Part shown: positions 28,001 through 58,000 of the stretch, one piece after another
How positions within the stretch are numbered: the first letter of the stretch is position 1
Layout of the letters: each line of letters begins with the position of its first letter
The notes under the pieces: model-generated
Databases searched by the model: none
The model's input: the letters and a program-made list of their open reading frames with translations, nothing else
What the model was told of the DNA's origin: nothing
Origin: Tubiluchus corallicola
Lineage: Eukaryota; Priapulida; Priapulimorpha; Priapulimorphida; Tubiluchidae
Length of the DNA stretch: 64,000 nucleotides
NCBI GenBank assembly: GCA_030141605.1
Contig: JAQGDQ010000273.1
Coordinates: forward strand, 117,001 to 181,000
Direction of reading: 5' to 3'
Translations under genes and position numbers: made by a program

Positions 28001-31000
28001 TCATCCATGAAAGATCACCCTCCTAAATATTCCATACAATCATAATTTTAGTCAATCTCATTACAAGTTAGTGATGAGTGCCACGCCAGTCTTCATGGAC
28101 AGGTCCAGCGTAATGTGATGATAAAACATGACCGCATGCTAGTACTATAGGTGCACTTATAATTAAAAAAGGCAAACTGCTAAGACCTAATAACCTTTAA
28201 TAAAAAAAGCTGTGGAGTACTTACAATGCAGACTCCAGTGACTGGATCACATTCGTTGGAATGACCATTGCATTCACAGCCTACACATCGTCCTAGTGCA
28301 GGCCCACTAGCTTGCCTGTTAAATCCAGGGGCGCAGTACTAAAAATTTCAAATAATGTTAAGTAGCACATGGTACAATTTCTGACAAACCAGAAAAATCC
28401 AGCAACATGCGTTATTTTTGCTTCTTTACTTACTCAAGCTCAGCAAGCTACAGTAAGTTATATTTAGTGGAAATAATAAATTGCTATTATCTTGACTTTG
28501 GTCTAATATAAGCTCTTTGGCAAATATGTGCAACTCTATTATTACACAAGCTTGGAAAGTATAGGAAAATGCACAAATTTTCTTAGTAAAAATTGTCACA
28601 ATAGTTTGAAAAGCTATGATCTTAACTATGAAAATTCTTGGACTAACATGGATTCAGTTGTCTGAGCTCCTGTGTGGTCTGCACAAACTCACATAAACAG
28701 GGCATCTACATTCGTATTGTTTACTGAATTTTGGCATAGATGGTAAGACAAAAGAAACCTAATGCAAATCGCAGACATAAATAAGCAACTGGACAACTCA
28801 GTAAACTTTTCTGCCAGCAGATAAAACATGATCCATTTCACAAATAAATTTTTAAATTAATTGCACATTGAAAATTCGGTAAAGTAGTTTTAACACACAA
28901 ATTTACCTCACAAGAATGTCCAGTATATCCAGTAGGGCAAACACACTTCTCAACTTCTACAGCACGTGGTCGACCAGTATCCTGGGGTACAGCAATATCA
29001 AGCTCTATGTTGCTAATCCTAAAAACAGACATTTTATTAATCAGAATGTTTTATCAAAAGTCAAAAATATCAAATAATGTTAATAAATAATACATACAAA
29101 GATTCAAATTCACAAGTGACATGATTCTACATTGGAACACTGCATATTGCAAGTACACTCATATCTCGGTTTGCCACACCTCGTTTTTACAGATATCGGA
29201 AAATTCAGACAAAACATGGTTCGTTAAAAGTCCGGCATAATACGGACGCAGTCCGTTGTTTCGCGAGCTGACTGCGAGTTGGCGGGCCATTACTTTCTTT
29301 TCACATGTATCTCTTGATGTAAAAAAAACTTAGAATCAATTATTCAGAGTTATTTGAGTCAACTGCCGACAGTTAGGCGACTGATTCTACATTACCGCGA
29401 ATCTAACACACGGTAATCTACTGCATTAGTTTAGAATCGGAAAAAATGGACAATCGGCAAATTCAGGCCGACATCTTCCTGCACCGAGACGAGTGAAATG
29501 GGTTCAAGAAAATGAAAAATTTGCAATAGACAGCAGTAATATGCAATTAACATAGTTAGCCAATTCAAACAAACTCTTCCTAAGATGCTCCAATGTTTGA
29601 GAACTGTATTCGTAGCTCCTTACGATGAGTGCTGCAGATATTTGTTCACCAAATAGTTCAGGATATAAAAAGCTACAAGACAACATTTCACCTGGTCTCT
29701 TCCATGTACTCATCATAAGAAGCTCGGATTTGGATAGCAGTCAGATTCTGTAGAACCATCATGAAGTCTGATCTGCTGACAGGACGACCAACCGGTACAT
29801 CACCCCTGCCAGAGTATGTGTCATCTTTTAACCACTCACCCTGTGGAAATTTAAAATCAATAAATTGTGAAATGTAAATTTACAAAGCATCAGATGACAA
29901 AAGAGTAATGGGTAGCTGCTTAAACTTAAGTAATACAAAAATAAAGACAAAAAAGAAGTTGTATAGAGCATACAGATTAAATGATTTTAATGCTATTACT
30001 ACCCAAATATAATCTGTGAACTGCATAACTATTAAGCACAGAGAAATGTATGTGGTGACCCACGGAATGAACGAAAGTCAGGATGTTAAAAGCCATCAAT
30101 GAAAAACCTATCCCCATTTATTCATGATTAATAATACGCACGAATTATTCTCTCAAGTTTACATTGTACATTGTAAGACATTGATCTTTCATAGGTCAAC
30201 AAATTCTTTGGTTATGTAATTCTAGACCAGTTGTTACAAAAGTCATTCAAATATTGAAAGTTTTACACATTTCTGCACAATTTCCACCATATGTCAAAAA
30301 CAATGCTAGTTATCAAGATAATTGCAACTAATCTTATGACATACTTGCATATTATGACATGCCTGGCACATACTGAATATATTTCAATAAAAGACACACA
30401 AATCACGAAAGAGAGACAAAATACCTTCAACGTTATTTCCTGATGTGCGTAAAAATAAAAACAATTTTAAATTAGACTAAGGGAAGCCAGAATTAAAATA
30501 ACAGTGAAAGAGTTCATTTTTCAGATCACCAACTACTTCAACACGATTGTTAAAACCTGTTATTCAAACTAAGAATTACATTTTTCCGCATTCTGTAAAT
30601 GGTGAATTCACTGTAGAATGTCATGCATTATAGCAATTGCAGACTGGTTATAAGAGTTCTTTTTCAGGACATGCAGTAATATTTTCACTTCTTGACTACA
30701 GACTCTTATCTTGAGAGACCCAAGGTCTTATTTCAGGTGATTTGCATAAAAAATTCTATAAATCTGTCATTTTTGCCACAATGGTCTGTTCTTGGTTCCT
30801 CTGTAGCAAAATTCAATCATTGCTCTGTAATAATATAATTAATGTTAGGTCGACCATAATGTATAGTAAAAAACGAATGAAAAAGGTTAATACCTCCATG
30901 AACTTCACGCTAACTGGATTGTTTTGATCAGGAATAGGAGCTGCATTGCTTTTGTAGTAAAGCACCAAATTATTGCCCTAAAATAAAAAACAGAACAGTT

Positions 31001-34000
31001 AATGATTTTTCTACATGGCAGACAAACTGAGTGTTACAGTTTTCCTAATCAGTAAAAGCAACAACTCCCCTCCACATATAGACATAAGTGATAAATACAA
31101 GCTATTACTGAAACATTCAGCAAATGTTATAAAGTAAAAACGTGTAAAAGTTATAAAATGTAACAATATAGAAAACAGGTATTACATATGAATGTTTTCT
31201 ATTGTTACGTCATTTATATGGGTTTGTCCAGAAATAAAAAATTGCTTACTTCATCATCAGTTTACTGTTCTTAAATTAATTAAGTTTGTAAACTAATAAC
31301 TTACTATTACTAATGAATTAAAGCAATGTACTATAAAAAATCATAAAAACAAAACATTCTTTACCGTCATAATGACGTCAGCTTGTTCGGTTGGAATTGT
31401 TCGGCCTCTTGGTCCTCTATAATAGTATTCATATGACAGATCACCACCATAACTAACCAACTACAGAAGAAAAAGTCATTTTAACAATCAAGTTTTATTA
31501 AATAAATTTTTAACTCCTGCAAAGCACTTCAATTCTATGTCAACTGTCAATTCTTCCTTAAAATGCACACAATTGACAGAATTATTTTTGATAGAAGAAA
31601 TTTTGCTAAATTTGAAATTTGAAATCACACATGCTATACAGGCAGTATAAAATTCTTTACATTCACAATTTGCTTTATTCACCTGTGGTGATATTATATA
31701 AAATGAAATGCTTTGCTGTTGCAAATCTCGACGTTATTTTGTTATTTGAAGTGTACAAGGCATTGATTAATGACTGAACGTTAAGCATCAATAGTTTGTA
31801 AAACCTCCATATTACTAAACAACTAATCAGTTTGTAATAGTGTATGCCTGATAAACTCATGGTTTGTTGAGACAAGAAACTGAAAAACATGAACTTATCT
31901 GTCAGAGGACTTTTTTGCTAATAATTTTGATTATTATTATTAACATCCTTTCAATTTTTTTTAAATAAGTGATCAATGCAACCTGCCAGATTCTATTCCA
32001 CTTTTGACACTTTTTCTGTGCTAAAAAAAGACAACACATTATAGAAATATTAGCAGCATATTTGAGGAAATCATAGTATTGTTGCCCCATTAAAAGTTTC
32101 CACAATAAAAGCCCATAAATGTAACAAACCTTGTTGCCGAGGAATTCACGTGGAAGGTCCCAGAACAGATGCCCTCTTGGTACCACATTGTGGAAATCTC
32201 GTACGATGAACTGTCTAGACGATGGTCTGTACTCAATCAAACTTTCATCGACATCGTAATCCGTGTCAGCACTGAACATACCAATCTCATTGCCAATTGG
32301 AATCTGAGGAAATATAGGTAAGTTACTGAGTGCATAAAGATGGTCTTGAAATAATCTTCAGATGAATGTTTAACTTCCACAAAAAAAAATACAGGGCAAA
32401 GAAAAAATGTTACAAGTATACTAAAAAACTAGTGAAAATTATTTTTTCATAGCATGGGAAAATTACACTTGGCTTCTATAGTTGCACAATGTGGTAAAAA
32501 GTATTACTAACAACTAACAATTCCATGACATGAATTAATTGAATTTTGTACGTGTATCATGTCATGTCATGTCACGTCACGTCATGTCATGTCATGTCAC
32601 ATCATATCATACCATATCATATCCATTCAGTCCTGTGTTAGGCATCCCTGCCTGTTGACCGATCATTACTATCTAACACTTTAAAATCTGTTTATTGACT
32701 ACTTAGTGCGTATTGGTGGTTCTGCCATGTGTCACCATGTGTTCAAGCACAAAAATTTAGCACAAGCACTTTATTAATCACGAAATTTAAACTTTTATTG
32801 GTGAAGGAGGGTTAAAAAACCACAGGAATATTAGAAATAAATCCAACTGAAATAAACAACATTAATGCAGTAGCTACACTACTGTACTTACCGACGACCT
32901 GAAGTACTCAATACTATTGCAATCCTGAATGACACCAAAACAATAGCAAGCTATGCACTGTGAAATATCTTGGGCTCCAACGTTAAATAATGGTGGAGAG
33001 CACACATCACCTTCCGCTGTTTAATAAAAAACTCCTTAGTTTAAAAACTGATAAAAACACAATTTATTATCCTACCTGAATACTTCCTTGGTAGGATAAC
33101 ACCAATATTGTCAAGCCATATAAAAATAAAGATATATTCGCCATTTTCATTTTGGAAATTTTCCAAAGAAAATTTTGTACTGATTTTGGAAATTTTGCAA
33201 CAAATTTATAATAATTGTGACTTCAGAATAGCAGTTATTGTAATTCAGTAATCAAATCTGTACAATGTATGAGGTAAAAATGCAAATTTCACAAAAATTG
33301 GTCATGCATATTTAGAAATAAAAGAGAATGATGCGATCAGAATTTAAGATGTAAAATGTACTTTGGAGGACAACAGACTTAATAATTCAATTTACTTAGT
33401 TTAGTTTATTTCTGCCATCATAAAGGATGAACATTTATACTGAAAAGATTGGTATAACACAAATTATAACAACACCAGGTTAAGAAATCATTTTTACACT
33501 TAAATGTTCAACAGAAAGGTAGCTTGTTGTTCCCAGTTTTCATTTGCTCAAAAAACTTCATTTATCACAAAGCTTCATCATCTTAAAAAAAGTAAATTAT
33601 TATTTAATTTAATAAAATGCTTAACATTCTTTGCATGGTCTGAAATTTTATCATAAAGCATTGTTTTGGACAGCATTGTTAGGCGAGCTCAGTTGAATTT
33701 AGCAGAAGTAAATGATATGCTATATGGTAACAGTGATAATCATTAATAGTAGTAGTGCCTGTATATGTCACTTGAGTTCTAGTTCTACGTACTTTTAATT
33801 GTAAGTATGGCATCTGGTACTGCAAACACACTTCCCTTGTTGTTAATAGCTTCACAACTGTAGGCACCTTGATCAGTGAGTTGAACATTCCTATAAAAAT
33901 GATGTCACAGCTATAGTAACTACATATTAATCAATCAATCAATTGGTTAAATGCTGGAAGTAAATATAGAAAACTTTTAATGTAAATGTAGAATCAGAAA

Positions 34001-37000: not shown

Positions 37001-40000
37001 GCAGACTTAGAAAAGTCTGTGATTTAGAAAAGTATACTTTTTAATTTATTGCTAATTCACTTATGTAAATTAATATTTTAAAATATTTTTTCTAATTTTT
37101 AACTGCACAACGGAATTTAGGTATTACTTCGTTTCTAAAATTCATTAAAAACCTTTGCAGTGCATACTAAGCTGATGGCTCATACTTCTATACCTGTAAT
37201 ACTACACCCATCGGTTAACATGTTCAATTGGTTAATTGGGTCAAAACACGTCAGTCCCAAAGTGAGTCTATTAAGCGGCATCTACTGTATTTCTAACATA
37301 ATTAGAGCAGCATATTTTAATATCAGATAAAATGTAATACACACTAAAATAGACATACGTAATGTAGATTAAATTTACTAATTTATGTTTGATTTACACC
37401 CATAAATAACTGAACAGAAACCAGGCTGTGGGGCTTGTGTATTCAGAATATCTAAACTTATTGTCTTCAGAATATAAAAAAATCAAAAACATTCTTGTTC
37501 AAACTTAGCTAACACCAATCAGAATCCTATTGTAACCAAACCATAAAACAGAAATAAAAAGGCTGAGCAGTGCTTTTCATATGTTTTGTTTAGCTATGTT
37601 TCTGACAAGCACTTAAGTTTGAGAGTTAAACCAAATATTGCATCACAGTTTTTAAGCTTAGTCCAATTTAGACTTATCAGTGCAAATCAGACCAAATGGG
37701 CAAAAAAACAACAATGTCGGCTCTGCTCTCTAATCAAATGAACCAGGCATCAAGATACAACAATTATGACTCACATATTTTTAAAATAATACCATGATTT
37801 TTAAGAGGTGCAAGTAAAAACATAAATGATCACTGTACTCACGGCACGTTGCCTCATCACTGCCGTCGCCACAGTCATTATCACCGTCACATCGCCAGAT
37901 TTTCTGCACGCATCGCCCATTAGCGCATCGGAACTCATTCGGTTCACATCGTCCAGGTAAAGCTGTAACAATAAACAATTTATTGAAATGCTCTTGTTAT
38001 AATTGAATGACTCAGCGATAATCAAATTTATCATTTCGGTATTTATTAATCTTCAATTGAAGAAGGTACAAGTTCTGCGCACAGGAAGAAAATTTAATAT
38101 TCATACCTCTACCATCGTTTCCTATTGTGTTATGAGCTGCGTAAAAATAAATTAGAGAAAAGGTACAGAATAGAAAAAACGAAGCAAACATAACAGAAAT
38201 GAGTGGAATTTCCTTTTGCATTGAGGGACGTGCACATGAACTAGACTCTTGTCAACTCATGTCACAAATTAAGACTTCAACGAGCTTTTTCAATATGTTT
38301 AGGAGAAATAAATAAGTAACATGAAATAGATTAATCGCATTTTCTTACTATGAGTGACTAGTGTTAAGCTTAACTGAAATAACAATTAAGTACAGCCTCA
38401 AATTCTAAACAACAAAGTTCAATGTAAACACAAACTTCAAATCTCTACCAGCTTACGTAAAAATATTGATTTTTCTATGCACTACATCAACATAAAGTGA
38501 ACTTACGGAAATCTATTTCACAAATAGTAAAAGTGCTAAATAGTACAGCAGCACAAACCTGATATTCATGTTATCAAAACCAAACAAACTTGAGTTGAAT
38601 GCCATCAAAGTTTTGTACTGAATTTATAAACACTTTTGTACAAGTTGGAAACACTACACTGAGGTGCAATTTTGCATAAGATAGAAACTGACGTACATGT
38701 AACACAGTCACGCTCGTCACTTCCATCACTACAATCCAGATCCCCATCGCACAAGTAAGCTCGGAGGATACACTCTCCATTACCGCACGTTGCTTCCTCC
38801 TCCGTGCATTGACCAATTGGTGGTCGTCTCGTAGGTCCAACTAAAACAAACATCAACAATACTATCAAAAAACTACAGGAAAGCAACTAAAACATGATAA
38901 CTATGTGGATGGTACTGATGAAAACAATGATGTTTAGAAATATTTTCGTAAATGACAAAGTACTTTTTCATCATTAATGACATTTTTTGAAAGATTAAGA
39001 AATTTTTTAATTGGCTTATCAATGGTTTAGTATTTCAGTGTCAGAGTTTTTTTTTAGGTAACTGATATAAGACACTAGAGGCCAAGACAACTTTTTTGCA
39101 TTTTCAATGAAACAGGATTAGTTCAATATCTTCAAAACAAGACTTGGATACCTTTATAAGAACCCGAGTGAAATGACAGGTAATTAAAACTTTAAAACCC
39201 TGCTTACACTATGGAGAAGATATATATAGTCCTAGAGTCCTAGATCCTCTTAATCCCTTTCACACTTTTAATAATTTATGGCCACATGATCCCTGTTTAT
39301 ACTACCTGTAAAGAGGATAGATATGTGGACTTGTTTTTCCTCTGTGTCATTAAAAGGATCAATTGTCAAGACCCCAACAGTATCATGAAAAATGCCTGGT
39401 CAGAGCTGCACTGTGCCAGCAAAGCATAGAGAAAAGATACATAATGGGTATATATTGTGTCCACTTTACAAAATTATGCAGATCTTCAGAGACCACATAC
39501 AGGAGGTACTTACTACAGTCGAATGCCTGAAGTGCTGCTTAAATTAGATTCAGATTGAGAAAGCCTATAACAGGAGGTTTAAGTTTCAAGATCAGCAATG
39601 AAAAGACATTTAACACATGATACGATTTACATACACGGTTCAACAGTTAGCTGAGCAGTGACTTCAAAAGTAGTCGGCTGTCCTATAATTGAACACTTAT
39701 AGGTTCCCTGGTCATTCCTGGTGACAGAGGATATCGTTAGCCGTCCTCGACCATCATCAGAAGCTTGCAGTGGTAGCTGACGTCCATCTGCCCGACTCCA
39801 TCGCAAGACGGGTGTAGGTTCTCCTTGGACGCGACACTGCATAACAACTTCAGAGCCTTCCCGCACTGTCTGTGACTCAGGATAGATTTCCATTCTATAC
39901 TGAGCTCCAGCTATAAAACAGACATAAAAAATATATCAATTTAATAGAAAATTAAAGTAAAATAACATATTAATTAAATAAATTACTAGGGAAAAAATAC

Positions 40001-43000
40001 AAATACTTAATGGATACTTAAACAATTTTCGATGAAAAAAAAAACAACGTAACAATTAGACAACAAAAAATTGTAGGAACTACACACTGTATTCACGGTA
40101 TTTTCCCAAACATATAGCTTGGTCCTTACAGCTCACGTTAATACTTTTTTATCTAAAACACATGCATCAATTATGACTACCTAAAACATACAACATGTTA
40201 AAAGTGATTCTTAAACAACATTAAATGAAATTTCACTTACCAAAGTCATATACTAAAGTGAGTGCAAGTGAAAAATAAAAACAAATAAATCAAAACAGCA
40301 ATTCTGTTCAAAATGGATTTGTTAATACAAAGACCAATAAACAGTGAAAAGGTTATGTTATTGCAACTCATAATAAAAAAAGTGAAAATTAAAATCGAAA
40401 GTGAAAAAAGTGCAAAAAAGTTGCGGCAGTTATGTATTTTATATTCACAAATATAAAAAAGTGATAATCTCAATCATTACCAAATTTGTGATACAGCAAA
40501 CAATTACATTAGCAGAACATGAAACTTTGAGTTGCTTGTCAGCATTTGTACTACGTATTTTACCAGGAAAATTTTGTAGGCACGAATCATACGCACGCAC
40601 GCATGATGATCAAGCAACTTAGCGTAAACATTGTAAAAGCATTAACTACAAAACAGTTCCTCAAAATAAATAATAAAATTCTACATCAATTAAGCGAACA
40701 GAAGCACTAGTTTGCCATGTAATTTCAACCTTTGTTCACTATCACTCACTATTAACACGCCACACTGTAACTCATAGTAAGGATATCGACATGTACTTAA
40801 AACTGAATAACATAGTTTGAGTAGTTTCTAAGGTTGGCACCAGAAGCAAAATGCACCGACAAAGAATCTTACTATCTTTATAGAGTGAGAGTCAACAGGA
40901 TCACCAAAAAGATTCTGGAAGACATTACGCCTGAATTATCGAAGTACAACTTCAAAAGTCAACAGTCAACTAATAATAGATTCACCTGTGGCCTCAAAAG
41001 CTTGTGCTACTAAATTTTTGAATGAAACAATATTAAGGTTTCATCAATAAAACCATGCTGCATTCTTTCTCTCACAATTAAGTGATTTGGCCTATGAATG
41101 AGCCACTTCGCCAAAGTTAACAGTGCACTATGCTGTGTAATCATACCAAACATATGTGGCCTTGCCTCACAAACGTGATAAGTCAGCAGTTTTTTGAGAA
41201 GATCTGTAGAACACAAACACATGGCATTATGCTGATCTCTACTTGAAAACATCCACACTTACGACAATCCAGCTCGTCAGATGCATCGAGACAATTTATA
41301 ATGCCATCACAAAGTAACTGCAGCAGAATGCATTCACTAGATTCTTCACAACGACAAGTGCCAAAACCACATCCAATCAAATCTAAAATTAGTGGCAGAC
41401 AATGCACCAGTATTTTTCCAAGTTAACAACATTGTAGGTGCAGCCATATACGGTGCACTGTACTTCAAGGGTAGTTGAGTAATGTGTACTGTAATGTATG
41501 AGCAGCTCTTTACTTACAGTAGGCAGTACACATAAGCTTATTATGATGCTATGCACGGTACATTATTTGATTATTAGAAACAAGAAGGCAGATCGTCAAA
41601 TTTTTCTTCAACCAATATAAAAGTAAAGCAAACTAATCTAAAGTAAAGCAAATCAATCTAAAGTAAAGCAAACTATGCCAAGAAACTAATATTTCTCTTG
41701 GAAAGTGCAATTCCAGGCAATTAACGCTGTAGCTTTTCTGGAAACCACGTTCATTTAACACGTATGACAAGATGTATTACTTTCGAACTTTGAATTCCAG
41801 AATAGAGATTTAAGACACATTAAGCACACACAATGAAATACGCCCGACTATCCGATGTTTGAGATACACAGAGCTAGTGGATATGAAACAGATCAAAGTC
41901 AGCGCACTAGTCTTCAGACTTATACCTTGAAAGCTGTTATACTTACGACAGTTTTCTTCATCGGACGAGTCTCTGCAGTTCGGTTGACCATCGCAGCGAT
42001 ATCTAGCATCAACACATTCACCACTGTTGCAGGTGAAATCACTTGGCAGACATCTAGAAACTGCAATGAAATACTGATTATTTAATAAAATTAGTTAATC
42101 AGTTTATCAAAATTAACTGATAACAACAATAGAAAAAACAAAGTGACTATAAAGACACATAACAGAATGATGAATAGAAGTGAATGTGGTCCAAGGTTAC
42201 TCTTAATGATTATCAGTGCCAGCTAATTTCAAAAGATTAGAGCGATATATTGCTTACAAATGACATACATAGATGAAATGTGATAAAGCAAACAATTTTG
42301 CATGCTGTCACAAAGTATAAACTACATATTGGTATAGTACATTTGTGTTGCTAGTGTAAACATCAGCATTCTCGGCTTGTGACGTCATGCCTCTTACACC
42401 CGTAGTGCAACAGTTTTGCTCAATGACAGCCTATATAAATGTGAGTTTTGAAGGCAATATTGTCTAAACTTTTGTCTGTGTTTGTATTTGCAACATATGT
42501 GCAAGTTATTGAAGCTTAAGCTAACTTTGGTGATATTACTCCTTTAATACAAGTTTGTATTCTTGACAATAATATTTAAATGATAAAAAAACAAATATAC
42601 TGTACAAAATTAAATTCGAGTCACGCTGTTTTCCTATAATAAAGCTGAAGACTGCAAAGGGTGTCTATTCCTTGTAACATTAAGTGCAAAGTGTTCAGAG
42701 AAAGCTTGTGCTATAAAGTGCAGTGTAATGTGTAAGCAGTGCATCCTTAATATAACACTGTGCCCGAAAAGGTGCAAATAAAGACAGTACTGTGCCAGTG
42801 CAGCATCTCAGCACCAACCTGGACAACAAACAGCAGGTGTATCCTGTAAGGCAGTGTTACATACATAACCCTCTGGACATGGGTTAGTGTCCGAGCACGT
42901 TAGTGCCTGCAGCGTGAATGAGCTTATGAAAGGTTCATGCAAACCACATGGCGAAGTTGGAGGAGCCACTGTAGCATTAGTGGTCACTATCAGTAAACAA

Positions 43001-46000
43001 TAACACAAATAAACAAACTACATTGGATAAATAAGGAAAAATAGAAAGTAATTCCAAGTAACTTAGTTAACTAGTTAAGCTACAATTCACTTGTCTGCTT
43101 TTGTAACCAAAATAAAATTATAAAAGATCATTATGACATTACCACCCAACTTGAAAACAGCAAATCAATGCAGATCTACTATAATGGCTGCTATACAAAA
43201 ATGATTTTTTAACAACAATCAACAAAAATATATTAATGGCGATTTTTGATCTTATACAACTCTGAAAAAAGTGCATACGACAGACATACTAAATACTAAA
43301 TGTATCTGCTAAAGTAAATTATAACAAGGAACAGAACAAACGAAATACATTTATTCAAACCAATTTAACTAGCAAATTGGTTATGTAGCAAACAAATTTT
43401 TCCTATATTGACAGAAAGGCACATATGAATAAAGTGATAGCTGAAACAAAAGAAAAGTTGGAAGAACTGAAAGTGTTTTTAACGTTTAGAAAAGTAAAAC
43501 TAAACACAACTCTAGCAGTTTTAACCATAAAAGTTTGCAACTTTGCTCAACGTTTAAGCTAACATACCAAAATTATTAACAAAGTCATAATGGCAATGTT
43601 TTCAAAAATATTAGCTTCATCCTGCACATTGGCAAATAAGACAACAACAAATTTCTCTAATGACTTATTTAAATTACCATTATAAGAGTGAGTGTTAACC
43701 TTACAGACACCAACTGCTACGATAATCACAGTTATCACAGAGCTACCTTATTCATAGTTAAATTTAATTCAAACCCTTTAGCTAAACTGAATTTACAAAT
43801 ATGTAATCAATAAATTAACAACTACACTGGAATAAGGAGATGAAGAGTACATCAAGGACAGTCACAGTAATCAAAAAATGAGAATACAATTTTACAAAAA
43901 CCACAAATAAAAGTAGCAAAATAATGTACATATATCTAGCTACATCTACTACAACTATAAGTAGGAACAAAAACCAAATCAGTACTTTTAAAATTTAAAT
44001 ACTGTCAAATGTTAGCAAGCTCCACCAAATTACAGGTAAAAAAAGAAAAAGACAACGCAGGCTAAATAACCCATCTAACAAAAATAAAGCTAACGCACAA
44101 TTAAAATCATTTTAAAAATTAATAATTACCAACAGCACAGCACAATGAGCCTGGATGCTCAAAATAACGGACACATTCGTATCGCGGTGGGCATCCAATT
44201 TCTTGAGTACACGACCTTGGTCCTCCACCAGCTGAGTCCAAAAGTGGCTGCGACCCATCAGGACAGATGGCTACGGAAAATCAGTCACCATAAATTCATT
44301 TCTTCATTTGATGAAATGTACATTTAAAATCCCTCTTGAACGAAAAACTAAAAACTAGCTTTGTTTGTAATTTCGAATATGCACTACTAGAAGCACCTCT
44401 TAAGATAAACATAACTGCTACAGTCATGTAGGTCGAACTGGAAATCCATTCAAAATGGCAAAGAATACCATTTTCCCTCAAAAATGATCATGCTTTCCAT
44501 CTCGCAAGACATTTCTTTTATATGTAATACTATGTAGGTCATGAACTGACCTGGATTTGTACAGCACACTCCACTATCTGCCACTTCCACATCGTTGCTG
44601 CTGATGCTGCCTCGATGACAGAAATATCCACTCAGCAAACACTGAAGATCGCTTGAACATCTTCGTACACGTCCGCTCTCATCAGTCATTGGTGTTGCGC
44701 CAGATGGACATGCGTCCGCTGTATATACTAGGATATTATCAATGATGTCTCCTGCTTAACGTTAACTGTTGACCACCTTAACCTTCTTGATACACACAAT
44801 TCAAGTTAGGTGGTAACAGTCTAATGCTATCCACTTAAGCTTCATGCGATGTACAATTTGAGTTTAAAAGGTTATAGATACAACGATATGGTATAAACTA
44901 GTAATAACACAGAGATAAAGACAAAGACAAAAAAGTATATCAAGTATTATTAAGATCAGTGTATCAAGGAACTTATCAGCACATGTATATTAATGTGTTA
45001 ATGTTACTGCCCAAACTGACCAGTGCATACAGACAGAAATATAAGTCAGTACAATTACAAAAATCTGGTTTTAAAGTTAACCATCAGCATAAACACGCAA
45101 ATCTTATTTCTCAAAGTCACTAACTACTGCCAGCAGGAAGAATGTGACATACACAATGCAAGATTTTAGATTAAGTAGTTTAAAAATGAAAGGCATTAAG
45201 GTAATTTCAGTGAGTCGAAAATTTCAAAATTATGCAACAAAAAGATTACATTTTACAGCATGAATTGAGGCACAACAAGAAGTTAAAATTAAGAAACTTA
45301 CCTTCAGCTGGGCAACAGACAGCAGCACGATCAGCAATATCAGTATTACATTCGTATCCTGATGGGCATGGGTCCCTGAAAGAACACGCCACTTCGTCGC
45401 CATAGCGATCGGTTAAAGGAGATCCTTGACGACATGGATTAAACGTCTCAGGTGGCCTTGTCGATGGGCAACATACTGCTGGACGATCGGCAACATCTGT
45501 GTTACATTCGTATCCCGAAGGGCAAGGGTCTCTAAAAGAGCATGTTTGTTGGTCGCCATAGCGATCTGTCAGTGGTGTTCCTTGACGACAAGGATTAAAT
45601 GGCTCAGGTGGCGGAAGAGTTTGGGGTTCTGTGAAACAAAGAAAAAATTACCATAATTGATTACTATGCTACAAAGCCACTTACCTACAACCTACTAATA
45701 ATTTTTCATGGAATGGTTTCCTAGTGTAACTCAATTATCAGTCAGCAGAGCAGGAAGTGTGGTGTATCCAGATCACACAGGGTGGCCACTTTGGGGAGGA
45801 GGGAACCAATTTTGCACTGCGATACAGTAAGATGAGTATTTAATCAAAAATCGCAGTAGGATATTTTCTACAAGGTACAGTATGGTACAGTATATTATGA
45901 ATGTGCATTATGTTTAAGGAAAAAATGACAAATTTGTCTGCTGCACAGATGGACAAAACTCACATTAAGCTCAGTGCAATTAGTAGTACAAACTTTTCTA

Positions 46001-49000
46001 ATGTCCTCCAAAGCTGTCTGGCTAACACAGTACACAGTCACTGCAATGTATAGTCAACAGCAACACACTTAAAGGTAGCAGACTTTCTGGCATATTTTGG
46101 ACATTTTGTCACCCTCATTAGTTCAATCAATTACTTTATCAAGTGTCAGAGTTCAAAATCAGAGCTCCGATCTTTGCTCTACGAGAATACTGAAATAATG
46201 AAAGCTATATCTACAAATACATTTGCTATCTCTTCAGTTAAATGGCAAAGGCTATTAACTGAAAAGGAAATACAATACCAATACAAAATTATGCAAAGAA
46301 GCAGCCATGGCAAAAAAAATCATTCTCTGCTAAAAGAAGTCAATACATTGATTTGACTCACATGGATCTCATTTAATTGCACAATAGTAAGCAAGAAAAT
46401 GCATACCTTCACAATCATGTTCATCGGATCGGTCTAAACAGTCATAGTTTCCATCGCATTTCTGTGCCAGAGGTACGCAGAATCCGCTACCGCACTTAAA
46501 CTCGTCCGATCTGCACTCACGGCCATCTGCAAGGAAAAAGAAAATTACGACATCAATGCTTGAAAGTCTGTATTGTAACACTAGTATTGCCCAAGTAATT
46601 AATGTCTGTTGAGTGCATCAAAGTGTTAAAATTTACCATATAAACAAGTAGATAGAAAAGTTCTATTTACATTGAAATATTTTATTCAGTGCAAGATTTT
46701 ACCACCTAAAGCTGTATGATTTATTATATAATTAAGGTACAATTTTACATCGTAAAAATTCTTTCGTAAATATTAAAGAAAAAACGTTTAATGAATTGAA
46801 CTGTAATTATCATTATGAATTACACAAATAATATTTAAAACACAACCAATAAGTAAAACTATCAAACTAAAGACTGTAACTGAAAGAGTTTGTATACTGG
46901 TATTGGTGGTGAACATCAACTAATGGATGGTTCACATACCACAATCCGATTCATCCTGGCCATCTCGACAGTCATTGTTACCATCGCAACGCCGTCGCTT
47001 ATCGACACAATTTGTGCCGCCGTCACACGACATCTCATACCACTGACATTCCTGGATTTCTGTATGATTGTGGAAACATGCATAAATAGAAGACCCAAAT
47101 TGCATAGGATGGTCATTGGCAGCAAAGAACAAGAAAAGACTCAATACATGTTTCTATCTTTTTTTTTGAAATAAAGTGCAATTTGGGTCTCAAAGCTGTG
47201 AATTCAAAAATTAACCTGCTGGTAATGGCCATCAAAAAAGTTATTGAAGAAAAACAAAATAGAAAATTATGTATTACAACCTAAAATATTTGCTAGATTG
47301 AGAAAACTTCAGGAATGCAGAAAAAAATCTCTGCTCTAAAAATATTATTTCTTATAGAAAAATCCACCCTAGCAGAAATAATAACTGCATTTTGAAAAAA
47401 GGTAGATTAAACAAAAGCAAAACAATATATAATATATTGAAGTATGTGTAATTGCAGAGAAGGATATAAACAACAAATAATCCTCTTAAAAAAACTGCCA
47501 AAGTATTTTTAAAAGTGGAAAGCAAGACAGATAGGTGAACAGATATTAAATTAATTAAAGAGAAATACAGTTTTTTGAAGAAAAGAAAATTGGCACAGCA
47601 CAAAAGCATCTTAAGGCTTAACCAGCAGGTTGACTTATTATCAAAAAAATATATGTGAAAAATTGTAACTGCGTGGAGAAATGTAATAGAAATAAATGCT
47701 TATGTCTGCAAAAAAAAATCATAAAAATAGGTGAAAATTATGTAATTTAAAGGAATGTCTGGCAATTTCTTTTCAAAGTAAAAAAACTTGTCAAAATAAA
47801 TAAATTTTTAACACATTACCTACAAACAATTTTTCTATTGCAGCACAAAACTCATCTGCAAGTGTAAGAAATCTTTAGTTTGATTCTGTCTGTGTAAAAT
47901 TTTGTTAATAAGTCTTAATAAAATTAGGCAGTATAACCAATTGTTGTGAGAAAACTTGATTGAAATGATGATATGGCATGTAATAAAAATCATTAAGATG
48001 TAAATCTAAAATATTTGGTGAAAAAATAAGCCATATCATTAAATATCAAAAATCCTAAAATTAAATACAAAAAAGTGTGACTTCTATGAATAAGTTCACA
48101 AGTTAGGCAGTTGATTCTTACACTCTGCATGGTAACTGCTTATTCTGATAAGATGAGTGCGCAAATGAGTAAAAAACATTATTCATTAAAAAACAAGTAG
48201 AAATTTGCAAGACAGGTTTTTACTTTAAAAAAACCTGAACATTTCCTTTAATGACATCAGATGACTACATCAAACCAAATATTTGTACTTGAAAACAAAA
48301 TACAGCCTAAGCCCGATGCACGGTTTATAAAATCATCATGACACCCTAATGTTTCACAATATTACATTACCAGATCAAAATAATAATAATAATAATAACA
48401 AAAAACTAACAATATTTTTCTTGAGGACTTCGGCCAGGAATAACACCTAAAGTGTCAAACACTTATTTCAAAGATGGTCCCAAAAAAGTGAAATTTGGTT
48501 ATCATTGGCAGAGCTGTATTAAACTTTCAAGCCAACACTAATTAAGATTGTTTTTTGCAAAACAAACTCAAACAAACAAACTCAATAAAAACCACAATTA
48601 AATTATGTATAGCCAATAAACAATAATAATATAATTAACAACAATTAAATTATAACCAATAAGTAATCAAAATTCTAACGCATCAAATATAACAGTGATG
48701 CTTAGAAACATGTGACAATTGTACACTCAAAAGTGCAAAATTTAAGGTACTAAAAGCTTATAAGAAGAGGTAATAACACTTTCAAACTAATAATTTCTAC
48801 CACTCTGAAACCCACGATAATTCTACATCTCGCTCAACAAAATAGAATGTAACAGCCAAAGACCACAAAATTCTATTTTGTTCAAGATGGTTCTAGAAAA
48901 ACTTAAAATGAAAAAAATCTTAATACCACAACTGTCCTCGTCAGAACGATCTCGACACTGCGGTATGCCATCACAACGCTGACCACTATAGATGCACTCG

Positions 49001-52000
49001 CCGCTGTCGCACTGGAATTGATCATCACGGCAACCTACTTGTGGCCTGCTTGTTGGTGTCGCAGGTGTAAAAATTTCATCAGGTGGCAGTGTGGTTTGTG
49101 GCTGATCCGCTTTATCACAAAATAAAATTGTCGCAGGTGAGACACAATATTTCAAATGCAGTTTTTAGAAGCTGAAATCATAACAATACCCCAAAACCCA
49201 GACCCGCTACATTTACTAATCCATCCAAGAGTCAAGAATAAAAATATTTTTCCTCTTATTATTTTGTTAAGATGCCCAAGTTTGAAACGTAAACCACTAA
49301 TGGGAGACGATCGAAAATCACGATAGAAACACGTTGTGCGTCACATCTAGCTAGATACACACTTATACAATAAACATCAATGCAGGAAAGAAGGTAAGTG
49401 CGTGACATACTTATCAACAGAAATGGTAGAAACAGGCTTCTTTCTTTTCACGAAACACGAGTTCATGAAAAAGGAGTTCAAAGTCAATCCAGCAAGTGTA
49501 TTAATAAGTGCATGAAAAGATGTCATTAGGCAAATGTTGTGTAGCACTTCTACACTGATTGAAGTGGCCTATCAATATAATAAACAGTTTGCCACAAAAT
49601 TACTAGGCACTAAATTACATTAATAGGATTTAGTTTGTGAATCAAAGCATTGTGGAAAATGGATGGAAAAAACTGTTATTTTTGGTCACTTTTAACATTT
49701 ACGCAAAAATAAAAAGACGAAAAGATAAAAAAACAGGATTATACATTGCAATTAAGCAGCAAACACTTTGTGTCAAATTGTGTGCTAGAAGGGCTTGCAC
49801 ATTTTATGAACAAGATGTAGCACATTCAGTACCAGTCTACAAGAATTACGCTACGTGTGAAGCGCTTTTCTATCACCCCCTTCCTATATAAATAATAAGT
49901 CATATCTCATATAATCAGAGATAAAAAGCAGTAAAAAAGCATTCAATAATTATAAGTTTCTCACAAATTTTGATTATTTGCAATCACATTTGTCTACAAG
50001 TTTCTAACAAAAACATTTGATCGTATATTTAAATTTCACAGTCATACCTTCCACATTGACTTCGATGAATCGATTCACAGGTGGCACTGAGTTCACTCTC
50101 ACCTCATAGCGGCCATTGTCGGACCAGGCTGCACCCAATATGGTCAGGTAGAATTCCTTGCGTTCGGCATCACCACGTGTTCGAAGGTAAATGCGATCAT
50201 CACTCGTCACTTTTTCATCGTCACGCGTCAATGTTTCCAATCCAGGTGCTACACCCCTACCATGCCTTATCCATTCAATCTAACATTAAAAATATTATTG
50301 GTATTCAGCTTTGTGACATTATTTTGTAACATCCGAACATATACCTGCACAAGCAACCAAGCTTGGTGCAAAGTAAGTTCTATGTCCAAAGCCCAAACCA
50401 CAATTACGAGACTGTTCTTCTTAAAGTCAAAACTGATATTCTTAATTCACTGGACAAGGGCAGTGTTGTAGCACTCGTAATGTTAGATTTATCAGCTGCA
50501 TTTGATACCATGGATCACGAGATTTTGCTGGATAGGCTCGATTATAGGTGTGGAATAAATGGAACTGCACTTCTGTTTCTTTCCTCTTACCTATCCAATA
50601 GATTTCAGCAAGTCAGTATTAATGGGGTCAGGTCGATGGATATGGAGCAACATTGAGGTGTTCCCCAAGGGTCTGTTTTAGGCCCGATGTTGTTTTCCAT
50701 ATATTCTTTCCCTTTGGGCAATATTCTTAGGCTGCATGGTGTTGGTTATCATCTATACGCTGATAACACACAGATTTATCTAGCGTTTAATCCTAAAATT
50801 GATATGGATGAAATAGAAACTTTGAATGTTATTCAAAACTACATTGCAGATATACGTCACTCGATGCTGCATGATTATCTGAAGCTTAATGATGATAAAA
50901 ACGATTTTATCACTTTTGGAAGTAAAAACCAATTAACAAAAGTTAAACAGTCATCTGTCCTTGTGGGCACTGATCTAATTGCAGTGTCCGATACAGTGAA
51001 AAACCTTGGAGTTATTCTAGATCATCATTTACCTATGTCTACCTGTATTAATAATGCGTGCAAAACTTCGTATTTCTATTTAAGGTACACTTCTAAAATT
51101 AGACCTTGTTTATCAAAACCAGCCAGTGAAACTCTTAACCACACGTCTGTCAGTTCTCGATTAGACAATTGTAACAGCACACTTTTTAGTATTCCTCAGT
51201 ATCAGATTGATAAACTGCTACATGTCCTCAACACAGCAGCCCGAATTATTACAGGCACTCATAAATATGATCACATAACTCCTGCTCTCATACAATTGCA
51301 CTGGTTGCCTGTTTCTTTCAGAATAAAATACAAAATTCTCTTATTAACATTCAAGGCTTTGAATGATTTAGCGCTCTCCTATATATCTGATTTTTTGAAG
51401 CAATACATGCCCAATCGCAATCTTAGATCAATTAATTCATCGACACTTTTTGTACCACATTATAATTTAGTCACATATAGTTTTCATAGTTTTAGTGTAG
51501 CAGCACTAAAATTATGGAATGATTTACCAATTCATACACGTAAAATCAATAATGTTCAAAAGTTCAAATCATTCCTTAAAACATATTTTAAATAAAGAAG
51601 CCTTTTTAATTAATTAAAAATTTATTATAGACTTATGGGTTTAATTATGGCTGATTTTTATATACATGTATTACGATTCTAGTTTTATTTATAACAGCCT
51701 ATTGTGTATATACTATTTACATGTCAATATTTTAAGTATGTAAAATGCATTTGTCCATTTTTAATGTTAATTCATTTTAAATATTCAATAAATTAAAATG
51801 AATTAAATTAAATTATGTTAATGGCAGTAGTCTGTTAAAGCCAATAGAAAGTAATGTAAATGCATAGTATGCAAACCAACAGTAATTCCGAAAAAATAAC
51901 TACTTCTACAGCTTATACATTTCAAGGACTATACACGCTATCGATAGCACACGGAATTTAATTCACTTCTTTTATTTATATGAGACTTCACATTAAAGGT

Positions 52001-55000
52001 AAGAATCTCTCTGCTGATATCTACTTCTGGAAAATATAAATTAATGAGATGCAAGCGGGTATGCTTGGTATGCAAATGAGAATTACAAATGAAACTACTT
52101 GCTGTGGCACAGGATGTGTAGGACTGTTTAGTTAGTATGTCATTAAACTTCTAATCATACAACACCATCTGCCCAACTTCTGTTTAATGTAATGTATATT
52201 TGTTTATGTTTTTATCATTTTTTTCTGCTCACATGATAAAGAATGCCCAAAAATGCACAAGAGTTCTCTAGACAAATTTAAAGATATCACATCTGCAGTG
52301 CTGCCTGTAAAGCGCCGATTTTAATGTGAAGCAAACTTACAGAAAATGACTGTGAATTTGTAACAACAGCTCTCAAGTTCAAGAATTCGTCCTCTTCCAC
52401 GTTTTGAGTGTCACTGATTTCTATAATTGTTGGTTGCTGTGATTCTGGAGCTATAACAAAAAGCAATGCAGTAAATATACACAAATAATGCACTATTAAA
52501 AACAAACAAAGTACACCTTTCAGATTAAATTTCATCCATAAAATTCATCGTATGCCAAGAAAAGAAAGCAAACGAAAACCACCTACACAAATAGCTAATC
52601 TTCGACAGCACTAGCTCAAAGTCAAATGTAACCTAATATCACAAATGTTGGCAGAAAGTGTTAAAACTAACAAACAGATGATATAAAATGGCGCAAATTC
52701 GAAGCCAAGCTATCCATTAAAATTATGGCAAACCCTCGATATACAAGCTAAGGGAAGAAGCGAAAGAGAGTATGTAGTAACTGACAGTCCACAATAACAG
52801 AGTGACGTGTGTACAACAGACATTACTAAAAAATAATCAGTAAGCCTATACAGAACACAAAAAAACATGATACAAACACACCTATAACATAATAAACAAC
52901 ATGCACAGTAAATGAACGACTCAGTCATGTGAGATGGTGACTGCTATATATAGCGCACAGCACGTCATTTGCCAATCAAATACTGGCTGTTATTACTGGA
53001 ACTTAATAATAAATGTAGCCACAATGGAGCGGCTAAAGCAAAAACAGTCCATCATATTCACATTCTATTGTAATGTGAGTTGATTCCAGTAAAAATTACA
53101 TTACATAGTGTGTTGGGCCCAATGAAAGACATATGGAAGCTGTGTTTTATACAATTTATGCATTAGATACTTACGACAATTGGCTTCGTCTCGACCATCA
53201 GCACAGTCATAAGACCTATCACAGGCCAGATTAGAATCTATGCATGAGCCATCACCGCAGGTGAATTCATTAGACCGACACTCTCCTGGTCCAGGAGTAG
53301 GTTCTGAAAAACAGATGTTATTATAAATTTCCAAAAGTGTAACTGTTTTGTAACATGCTATAAACTCATTGTCTTCAAAAGTAAAAACTCTTACGTGTTT
53401 GTTGTATCAGTGTTGTTTATGGTTGATTTATTTATCACATTGTACGCTCACAAAAGCAAAAAATCATGAACTACAATGATACTGTATTTTTGGAGGAGCA
53501 CTCAACAGCAGGCCAGAAAGTTTTAATGCAGTAAAACATTACTATAAGTAATGTACATTCACTATTTAGTGTACTGGCCTTCAGACTCTCATGCTGCAGG
53601 CAAGTTTAAGGTGTGTGATCCAAGAGTTTTAGAGACCACTGTAAAGCTCATAAAGCTCAAGACTCTCCAGCATATCTAGTGGAAGCTTCACGAATTTATT
53701 TTATTAGCATTTGTAAGAAATAAGTTACTTTTTCTTTGATTAGTAGTTGGTGCTAATAGTACAAATCTGAAACGTATTTTACTTTCTGAAAAGCCCCGAA
53801 ATTTATTTAAACTTTTGAGAGTCTGCTACTCCCTATTTTGATTGCAATTTGCTGAAAAAAATACTCTAGGATTGCACATTAAATATTACATACATAAAAG
53901 ATTTGTAATTTCTTTATATTAAAACATATAGCTTTTTACACTAAACATTTTTATAAAACTGTCTGTAGCTTTTATGGTAATACCAACTTGCAGCTATGAA
54001 ATAAACTGTAGGAAATCAATGTATAAATCTATGGTATTGGTTAGTTTAACAAAACAAACAAAAAATTTTTGCCCAAGCCAAGTATTGCTACATTATACCT
54101 TCGCCATCATCACAGTCCTCCTCGTCGGACCCGTCACCACAATCATTTCGGTCATCACATTTCCGTCGTGGGTCGATGCACCCACCATCATTACATTGCC
54201 AATAACCGGGAGGACACGTGGATACTATAGAATATGTGTACTAGCGCTCAATGGTCAAACAGAAACAAACTTACATAGATTACACAAAAAAGCATTCAAG
54301 TTTAAACTATTCAGAGATCCTTAAAGCACCAAAAGTACAATTTGTCAAAATCACTTTACAGTAATTTTTTTATTTTGACTTGTCACAAGTCCAAGTACGC
54401 TGCCGGACAAAAGCAGAGAGACATCGGGCCGAATTTACCAATACTAACCTAATACAGTAGGTGCTGTGTATTAGACTCACTGTCACCTAACTGTCTCAAA
54501 AACGTCTAGTATGGGCCACTCGTGTGCAAAAGTATATACAAACTGTCAGAAACTGACTTAAATAACTTCGCATAATTGACTCTATATTTTTATGTATAGA
54601 GATATACACATGGTTACACTGATGTAATGATGTAAACAAGTGACGGCCAGCCAACTAGCGGTCAGCTTATGAAACAACGGACTGTGCCCATACTATGCGG
54701 ACAGTCCAGGTTTTGTCCAATTCTTCCGATATCCGTAAAAGCAAGGTCCAGGAAGCTGAAATATGATTGTAAATTGAACTGCAGCTTTCAAAATTTTCGC
54801 TTAGAGAAACTCGAGTTCCAGTCAGCAGTTTACTATACTGCAGAGGCTCTCCAGCAGTAGTTTAATGACAGAAAAATATACAAAATCAAAAATATTTCAG
54901 TGTCATTAGCAATGCACGAGTAAAAAAGGCATCTAAAGATTACAAAGAGAAAATGTAGCGTATTTCATAAACAAAACCCTTTAATTTTTGTTGCCAGAAA

Positions 55001-58000
55001 TGATCCAAAGTTCTCTAAAGCTCAAGATGTGTTTGTCTCAGAGGCGTTGTCATAGACGTTACTGTATAAGTTTACAGTTATAAGTTTGCTCTAGCTGCTG
55101 GCGCAATTAAAACTAGTTGCCATGTTTGTACGTCAAGATGATCAAGTATTTGATGTGTTCTGTGCTTTAAGGATACGATATTTTATACAAGGTTAAAAGC
55201 AAGCAAATAAAAACTCAAATGACTAAACATCTAAACTTAGCAGAACCAAATGAGTTATGTTTATCTTTTGAGCAAAAGATACAATACAATAAACAAATCT
55301 TAAACAAAAAGAACTGAAAAATACACTCTGATCCTAAAAACAGTGAAATCACTTTTCATAAAGCGCACACTTTTGTCCATATAACTTTTGCATTAAACTG
55401 TAAACATTTGCGCAGTTTTGCTAGCTCACCATTACACGGGGCTGCCAAAAATGTTCAGATATTCACAATCAGAAGCTAATATGACTCAAACCATGCAAAG
55501 ATCTCTGTCTGAAGTCATCAAAAAAATATGGAAAATAAAAAGTGAAGCAGAGACCTTGTAGCCCCTTGTTGTATGAGTTACTATCAGTCATGAGTATGTG
55601 TGAAAGCAAATACTGAATGACTTAAAAAAAATTACAAATAAATACAGGGAAAGGAATTTTTCACGTTGAAATTTTTGTCTATTCCAGCTAACTGGTAGAA
55701 AAACAAAGTGGTGGGTTAAAATTGCAATTGTTGTAGTTCAAAACATGATACTGCATAAAATGCAACCTCATGCAACAATGCAAATTATTAGAGCTACTAG
55801 ACAAACCTGCAGGACAACAGACAGCAGAAGCATCTTGTAAATCAGTGTTGCATTCATAACCGTCGGGACAAGGGTCTCTAAACGAACATGTTTGCGGTTG
55901 TTGAGTCCAAGGGTCCATTAACGGGTCACTGTCACCACAACGCTTAAATTCGGGTTGCACTAAGAACGAAAAAACAAATATTCAAACATAAACATGACTC
56001 TTCAGAAAACAAAAACACAATCAGTTGCTGATTACGAGGAGCACATGCCAAGATTACTGTTTTTCAGACAATTTTCTCTAATAGAACATGATCAAAACAA
56101 AGGTTTCGTGTTTATAGTTCAAGCAGCTAGGTAAGAAAGTGCTTCATGCAAGGCTGGTGTTCCGGAACAAGTTGTGACATTATAATTCAACTTTTTTGCA
56201 AAGCAACCAAGAACTTCTGCAACTAAGATCTTGCTGAACTATGTAATATGGATGCACACGTAAAATTTTCATCTTCTACAAAACTTTACGAGATGCTTAA
56301 AAGTGAAATTCTTGCTGATGACTTTTGCATATATCAATCAATTTCTAGGGTGAAAATATCAAGCAATTTCTACGATGACCTGCACAAATTTGTGGAGTAC
56401 AGATTTTCAGGAAGGCAGCACAAGATTAGCAAATAGTAATCTATCACTTTCATTTTGAACGCCCATTTTTCTACCAACGATATCAGTCATCGACTCAAGA
56501 AAAGGAGCTCGTCAAGTTCTGTCAAAAGTATATAAAGGTTTTATAAAAAATTAGATGGCCAATTTTGTGGTAATGCTGCATGACCATTAGGCAAGCTGCA
56601 AAAGTCTAAATTAGGTTAATTGGCAAGCACTTATGAAAAGTCACGAAGTCCACCAGTTATGTCATAGTATTCAAGTGAATGGCGGCTACTACCATGTCTG
56701 AAAGTTTTTATACAGCAGTAGTATAAAATACCTTTATAGTTTACAGATAGCTTTTTGCAATTTTCCTTTTTGTTATTTTTTATAGGTTTAAGTGAGAATA
56801 GTAAAATAAACCCAACATGCTAAATGACGTTGCTTCCTTTTAAGTATTTTATGCTGTTAAATGAATACTAAGGGGCATTTTAAGATATGACACAAACAAA
56901 ACTAAATTCATTAAAAAGCGGCAGATTCTACCTTCACAGTCCTGCTCATCAGACCCGTCACCACAATCGTTTTGGTCGTCGCACTTCCGACGTGGGTCAA
57001 TGCATCCGCCATCGTTACACTGCCAGTAACCAGGCGGACAAGTAGCTTCTATTACATAAAAATCAAACAACAAAAAACTAAATAAGCAAATAAATATTAG
57101 TAAATGTTTTGTGATGGCAGACTATTAAATAAGCATCGCGAAAGATGGTTAATTATAGTATACCATGCCACAAACTGAATCATATATTCAAAAGTAATAA
57201 ACAAAGTAAAACCAAATACTGTTTTATTAATTCTAAAATAATTTATACACCACAAAATATAATAACAGTTAACAACATAAGTGACGTTAGCCATACTGAA
57301 GAATAGAATCAATTACTGGTTCTATACCTTCAGTGTCACAGTCTGTTTCATCGGAACGATCATTGCAATCGTCTCTCATGTCGCACTTTCTACGTTCGTC
57401 AATGCACTCACCACTGCCGCAACGCCAGTAACCTCGTGGACACTCCTCAACTATATAATGTGCAATGGTTAGTAGCAGAAATGAAAAAAGTTGCTTTAAA
57501 TAAACAATGTTTGTGATGGTAGGCTATCAATTAAGCATCGCAAAAAATGGTTAATTATAGAGTACCATGCCACAAAGTGTATCATACAACTAAACGTAAA
57601 GAGCAAAATGTAAAAAAATGCTGTTTCAATTTCACTAATCTGCAAATTTGATAATTTATATGCCACAAAAATAATACTAGTAATAGCCTAATTAAGAAAA
57701 AAGAGCTTGAACCATGTGCTCTGTTACCTTCAGTGTCGCAGTCTGTTTCATCGGAACGATCGCTGCAGTCGGCTCTCGTGTCGCACTTTCTACGTTCGTC
57801 AATGCACTCACCACTGCTGCAACGCCAGTAACCACGCGGACACTCCTCGACTATATAATGTGCAATGATTAGTAAAGCAAATAAAAAATTAAACAGCTTT
57901 AAAATCACTGAAACTGAAACTGCTATCCAATGCAAACTAAAAACCAAAATCACTGACGTATGTACAGAGCTATTGCACTTGATTTTTACAGGTTAGCGAC

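Follow-up and report, generated by a model that had tools for sequence, protein, structure and literature searches.

The priapulid Tubiluchus corallicola carries at least eight copies of the cysteine-rich Lustrin module (Pfam Lustrin_cystein, PF14625) in one gene, which its domain order assigns to perlecan (HSPG2/trol/unc-52 type): one within the run of LDLa domains, five clustered near the end of that run and two in the array of immunoglobulin (Ig) domains. Six of them, M1 to M6, lie in the window, by which we mean the whole stretch of 64,000 nucleotides analysed here (positions 117,001 to 181,000 of contig JAQGDQ010000273.1, called C767 below, in the 343.5-Mb assembly GCA_030141605.1); coordinates given without a contig name are window positions. 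We consider it probable, at roughly 0.7, that perlecan captured Lustrin exons by exon shuffling and multiplied them, thereby gaining disulfide-locked binding surface.

Lustrin modules and their exons

M1 occupies a minus-strand exon of its own (55807..55959, 36.3 bits against PF14625) between two LDLa exons of the same strand, namely exon 27 of our gene model (56932..57048), recognized by its cysteine pattern, and exon 29 (54099..54224), which matches Pfam Ldl_recept_a. The other five modules follow on that strand as a cluster. M2 and M3 share one exon (45302..45628; 64.4 bits over two stretches, 36.6 and 38.1 bits when scored alone), while M4 (44551..44718, 26.9 bits), a divergent copy with a longer loop before the final cysteine pair, M5 (44130..44270, 37.9 bits) and M6 (42819..42986, 29.1 bits) each have their own. 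The cluster is again framed by minus-strand LDLa exons, model exon 35 (46407..46526), which matches chains of the LDL-receptor family in a sequence search of the Protein Data Bank (PDB), and model exon 40 (41947..42060; Ldl_recept_a). E-values of M1 to M6 against PF14625 range from 5.9e-6 to 1.2e-17, and M1, M2, M3, M5 and M6 exceed the curated cut-off of 27 bits. As in other Lustrin_cystein proteins, six cysteines with the last two adjacent are present in all eight perlecan modules; when 54 different modules from this genome are aligned, five of the cysteine columns show no variation and the sixth keeps its cysteine in at least 90% of them.

All five Lustrin exons of the window are of phase 1-1, and a script-based classification over the whole gene assigns this phase to 34 of the 35 LDLa exons that it recognised and to six of seven Lustrin exons. 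Canonical AG and GT sites flank M1 to M7. Their donor scores lie between 3.1 and 7.7, the median over 92 exons being 5.1 (M6, with gttggt, 5.30 against 5.10), and the acceptor scores of M1 to M8 between 3.7 and 6.7, where the median is 4.8; these values are not independent since the splice profiles were trained on the exons of a first gene model, Lustrin exons included. Altogether, these results support what the initial annotation had claimed: six Lustrin modules in exons 11, 19 (two copies), 20, 21 and 22, counted from the first exon of the window (model exons 28, 36, 37, 38 and 39), in the same phase as their LDLa neighbours within a perlecan. All six match PF14625, M4 just under the cut-off.

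The Lustrin exons might instead be decoys that belong to a nested or mis-assembled other gene and stay outside the perlecan mRNA, as their inclusion is predicted from DNA and no search was aimed at the terminal exons that such a nested gene would have. We regard this as very unlikely, since the exons occupy three separate places on one strand, agree in phase and have canonical splice sites, the surrounding DNA (C767:88001-191000) contains 0 N, and the M2/M3 exon has a single match in the assembly.

The M2/M3 exon is under coding constraint, judged from a comparison of its two modules over 44 codons: 21 of 31.2 synonymous and 8 of 100.8 nonsynonymous sites differ (dS 1.72, dN 0.084). With dS near saturation the ratio is rough, though its direction is clear, and this one pair speaks for that exon alone. 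A DNA search of the assembly returned no second haplotype copy of the exon from which polymorphism could be read.

Two further modules, both matching Pfam, lie on the minus strand 3' of the window among the Ig exons of the gene: M7 (C767:115418-115257), located by profile search and Pfam, and M8 (C767:113304-113100; 32.7 bits). Scored together against PF14625 they reach 44.9 bits, and both stretches pass E 0.001. The description of the modules as inserted into the LDLa region hence holds for M1 to M6, but is too narrow for the gene. The M8 exon starts in phase 1; the sole phase-1 donor found scores 1.7 and two phase-2 donors score 0.4 and 1.9, of which the model took the latter and joined it to an acceptor that lies within the following Ig exon, at about C767:110700. 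M7 for its part ends in phase 1, so that splicing it directly to this Ig exon would skip M8 and keep the natural frame, and M8 may thus be an alternative last exon that gives a shortened perlecan.

Family assignment and fold

PF14625 is matched by all 54 modules scanned with Pfam. Six other families appear at E-values up to 1, all weakly (DUF4796_N with 15 members, Granulin with 6, Hirudin with 2, DUF5330 with 2 and two with 1 each). WAP and EB are not among these seven families, in agreement with the Lustrin type proposed in the initial annotation. A granulin identity was likewise rejected, as the six matches are weak (best E 0.008) and M6 reaches 16.1 bits against a cut-off of 20.9.

Structural comparison gave little further guidance. 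The AlphaFold 2 (AF2) model of M1 has a pLDDT of 78.7 and a pTM of 0.52, and its Foldseek comparison with the PDB returned 42 matches at E up to 10, many of them small toxins and none significant (best E 1.4). VIA-align found one chain with Z of at least 2, tick Evasin-3 (Z 2.3, rmsd 2.4, 34 residues aligned), which is uninformative. The module profile matched no PDB entry that is identified as a Lustrin; its sole PDB matches at E up to 1 are two granulin A sequences (0.074 and 0.093). When M2 to M6 were searched against the PDB together with one LDLa, the best-scoring stretch in each of the best 60 of 77 matches fell in query residues 1-48, the LDLa part.

These granulin matches bear on another reading, in which the modules would be granulin-related signalling or adaptor units, Lustrin aligning from its second cysteine onward with the first half of granulin. 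Besides the profile and Pfam matches, granulin A stands in the Foldseek list of M1 at rank 14 (44% identity, E 5.3). However, none of these scores is significant, and in the alignment Lustrin is without the second cysteine of the granulin CC in the first half, so that we consider this reading improbable. The weak resemblance to the first half of granulin may serve as a lead to function.

The host gene

The minus-strand exons are short and GC-richer than the AT-rich DNA around them (34.5% G+C over C767:88001-191000). An exon model built by dynamic programming, trained on obvious exons and run on C767:88001-209000, joins them into one chain of approximately 105 exons and 5,040 residues, in which stops are forbidden by construction and first and last exons are not defined. 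This stricter model replaced the first one, which held low-scoring junk exons, and still includes doubtful exons (e.g. 57 and 60) and a degenerate LDLa (exon 18). From its 5' end, it reads an acidic SG-rich exon, a run of LDLa-like exons, sets of Laminin B and EGF domains, Ig exons, and Laminin G domains with EGF. By manual count the LDLa-like exons number 36, one of them degenerate, and their run is interrupted by Ig and Lustrin exons.

A Pfam scan of seven pieces of the model returned Ldl_recept_a, I-set/V-set, Laminin_B, EGF_laminin, Laminin_G and EGF. Perlecan domain II is represented by Ldl_recept_a and I-set/V-set matches in pieces 1-3, and a minus-strand Ig exon of domain II type lies at 39635..39910 (phase 1-1; I-set/Ig_3). 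For domain III, the first Laminin B/Laminin EGF set (26054..33016, minus strand, model exons 48-55) gives 92.5 bits for Laminin_B and 68.3 bits for EGF_laminin. Domain IV appears as Ig_3/I-set matches in two pieces, with further Ig-like exons recognized by eye, and domain V as Laminin_G_1 (188.4 bits) and EGF (75.6 bits). By this order of domains, from LDLa to Laminin G, the host gene is a perlecan, as had been proposed.

The Laminin G (LG) region has its best PDB match in agrin (4.8e-89), and the perlecan LG3 structure 3sh4 is also matched (2.3e-18). Agrin, too, is a basement-membrane heparan sulfate proteoglycan and carries inhibitor-like Kazal-type modules; it is not known to have Lustrin modules, a run of LDLa domains or an Ig array. 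Because an LDLa run, Laminin B and an Ig array are present here, we assign the gene to perlecan rather than agrin.

Lustrin modules at other loci

In C767:88001-209000 and parts of three further contigs, a six-frame search with our own profile detected 61 Lustrin modules: 8 in the perlecan gene, 42 on contig C2314, 10 on C1961 and 1 on C516. A 62nd match at C767:153230 was dropped as false, being an LDLa exon (10.7 bits with this profile). As the profile was seeded with perlecan modules, its scores are circular and Pfam provides the independent test; searched against the whole assembly, it matches at least 47 places at E 0.001 on the same four contigs, at least 6 of them on C767.

The 53 modules outside perlecan thus lie at three loci, all of which have Kunitz domains, with WAP-like and Kazal domains at C2314 and C1961 and thyroglobulin at C2314. 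Open frames on C2314 combine Lustrin with WAP-like, Kunitz or Kazal domains, with more Kunitz and Kazal frames as well as thyroglobulin close by; the Lustrin modules of C1961 sit in a region that also has WAP, Kunitz and Kazal, and on C516 Lustrin adjoins Kunitz. Among ten pieces sent to Pfam, one open frame combines Kazal with Lustrin, the latter at 24.8 bits and below the cut-off, and another Kunitz with Lustrin. The C1961 example of WAP is above the Pfam cut-off; the WAP-like half of one C2314 piece has no Pfam match and is labelled by its cysteine pattern.

With best-scoring splice sites, 43 of these 53 exons are of phase 1-1 (C2314:108263, which got no site pair, being counted as not 1-1). 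Since the phase is mostly 1-1 in both kinds of gene, an exchange between them would mostly keep the reading frame.

Origin of the perlecan modules

We propose that Lustrin_cystein exons were shuffled into perlecan and then multiplied to at least eight copies, that the source was probably a set of phase 1-1 exons of an inhibitor-type gene, and that most copies would go back to one capture followed by duplication. A single clade of all eight perlecan modules is not rejected (p-AU 0.376), and a tree from which four long rows (M4, M5 and two more) are left out has a branch, with support 71/71, that sets the other six perlecan modules apart from the rest. One capture with duplication is the simplest reading of these data. 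The intron flanks of the seven perlecan Lustrin exons (600 bases per side) show no match to the C2314, C1961 or C516 loci, which argues against recent copying from there; the sole non-self match joins the upstream flank of M1 to another place on C767. This lack of flank similarity, together with an identity of 22-84% among the perlecan copies, suggests that the capture is old.

Several points weigh against this account. Resolution is low in the trees, which draw on 47 columns; the one with 54 different modules requires four changes of the perlecan label and groups M4 and M5 with C2314 rows, so that two or more captures may have occurred. M4 falls 0.1 bit below the PF14625 cut-off, and the M8 exon has no good phase-1 donor and is followed after the module by in-frame stop codons. 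Elsewhere in the genome, 10 of the 53 Lustrin exons are not of phase 1-1. The direction of transfer between loci is one that we infer, and the joining of the Lustrin exons into the perlecan transcript is predicted from DNA. Finally, Caenorhabditis elegans MLT-11 lacking all three of its Lustrin domains is reported to be viable without overt phenotype (PMC13181417).

Possible functions

In the proposed mechanism, each module would be a small disulfide-locked unit that adds binding surface to a basement-membrane proteoglycan, with proteases or other secreted proteins as the likeliest partners. The viability of the MLT-11 deletion argues against a strong protease-related role, whereas the inhibitor modules that accompany Lustrin at the other loci favour such a role. 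The initial annotation had guessed at a protease-related or a mineral/matrix-binding function; its protease half is favoured by this company, its mineral half finds no support in these data, and the guess as a whole stays conditional.

That the modules are structural spacers is a serious possibility, if short of an even chance. They would then be compact disulfide-locked beads that set core length, stiffness or protease resistance without a specific ligand, in keeping with a perlecan domain II that is already a string of 36 LDLa-like exons, with the strong divergence of the perlecan copies (22-84% identity) and with the tolerance of MLT-11 to the loss of its Lustrin domains (PMC13181417). What speaks against spacers is the comparison of M2 and M3, where only 6 of the 44 codons encode cysteine and yet 8 nonsynonymous differences stand against 21 synonymous ones, so that conservation seems to extend beyond the cysteines.

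The modules could also be direct protease inhibitors, which would make perlecan an inhibitor anchored in the basement membrane; we hold this to be rather unlikely. A comparable role is ascribed to the Kazal-type modules of agrin. Kunitz domains accompany the 53 Lustrin modules found outside perlecan at all three loci, and WAP-like and Kazal domains do so at C2314 and C1961, while MLT-11 itself combines thyroglobulin, 3 Lustrin and 10 Kunitz domains (PMC13181417). However, neighbourhood is not activity, no fold match is significant (best Foldseek E 1.4), and the Lustrin deletions of MLT-11 cause no overt phenotype (PMC13181417). In a bolder version, which we think unlikely, perlecan, elsewhere a scaffold for growth factors and adhesion, would in one lineage have become a protease regulator anchored in the basement membrane, having taken Lustrin exons from multi-inhibitor genes and spread them over two core domains, possibly with a short Lustrin-tipped isoform ending after M8.

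Binding to mineral or shell matrix, as in abalone lustrin A, is the least credible function for a module of perlecan, which is a basement-membrane protein. Neither C. elegans nor Nematostella vectensis has a mineralised shell. The Lustrin family is reported in proteins of both (PMC13181417; PMC6767649), and in favour of mineral binding stand the name and first description only, lustrin A being a nacre protein (PMC2989941).

Comparison with known proteins

The order LDLa, Ig, Laminin B/EGF, Ig array and Laminin G/EGF is shared with the perlecans of N. vectensis and Trichoplax adhaerens (PMC4398486). What sets the gene described here apart from perl of these two species, from Drosophila trol and from C. 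elegans unc-52, as far as these are known, is its set of at least eight Lustrin modules; the word lustrin was not found in PMC4398486. The 36 LDLa-like exons of the gene contrast with three repeats in T. adhaerens and human (PMC4398486). A SEA module (domain I) is predicted by the same study neither for trol and unc-52 nor for perl of N. vectensis. Its models were built from human modules as bait (PMC4398486); hence it was not set up to see Lustrin, and absence there is not evidence. In line with the initial annotation, which knew of no perlecan with this module, we found no report that joins Lustrin with perlecan among the papers searched, where those listed with both words are by title neuromuscular or clinical and mention lustrin once each; predicted perlecans in UniProt or InterPro, which lay outside the search, may carry it.

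MLT-11 resembles this perlecan in that it is secreted, large, part of the matrix and equipped with several Lustrin modules (PMC13181417). The other modules of MLT-11 are Kunitz and thyroglobulin, types that the C2314 locus shares and the perlecan gene does not. Other hosts of PF14625 differ from the basement-membrane proteoglycan seen here, being an inhibitor array, a trypsin fusion (PMC6767649) and a nacre protein (PMC2989941), and the Nematostella proteome is reported to have only 4 Lustrin_cystein domains (PMC6767649). By Pfam, Laminin G and Lustrin are reported to co-occur with an inhibitor module in ancestral pacifastin-like multidomain proteins (PMC13388995). In contrast to these, the pieces that we sent to Pfam gave no pacifastin match; the word perlecan is not in the main text of PMC13388995.

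Perlecan is usually presented with one fixed module set across animals. A perlecan with eight foreign, inhibitor-associated modules would be evidence that exon shuffling can reach its core and that searches baited with human modules can miss such parts. Furthermore, the perlecan modules offer a concrete way to ask what Lustrin does.

Further observations

Two acidic stretches of the gene are candidate glycosaminoglycan attachment sites, one at C767:199066-199321 with GSGSGEHPEGSG near the N terminus of the model and one at C767:88072-88309 with GSGELGSGELE near its C terminus. At C767:183400-186200, 5' of the window (69200-66400 if its numbering is continued), LDLa exons and the adjoining introns are duplicated in tandem (601 to 1,585 bases at 87-95% DNA identity), which suggests that the LDLa run grew recently. 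A perlecan intron that splits an Ig domain contains, at 50330-51595 of the plus strand, reverse-transcriptase-like frames with a stop between them, which by their motifs we take to be a LINE-type fragment. Laminin G matches with identical scores on contigs C1787, C2138 and C2264 suggest unmerged haplotypes in the assembly. On C2314 (71001-131000), Lustrin, WAP-like, Kunitz, Kazal and thyroglobulin modules form a very large array in which some Lustrin/WAP-like frames are identical in protein; it resembles an expanded inhibitor locus of the MLT-11 or papilin type.

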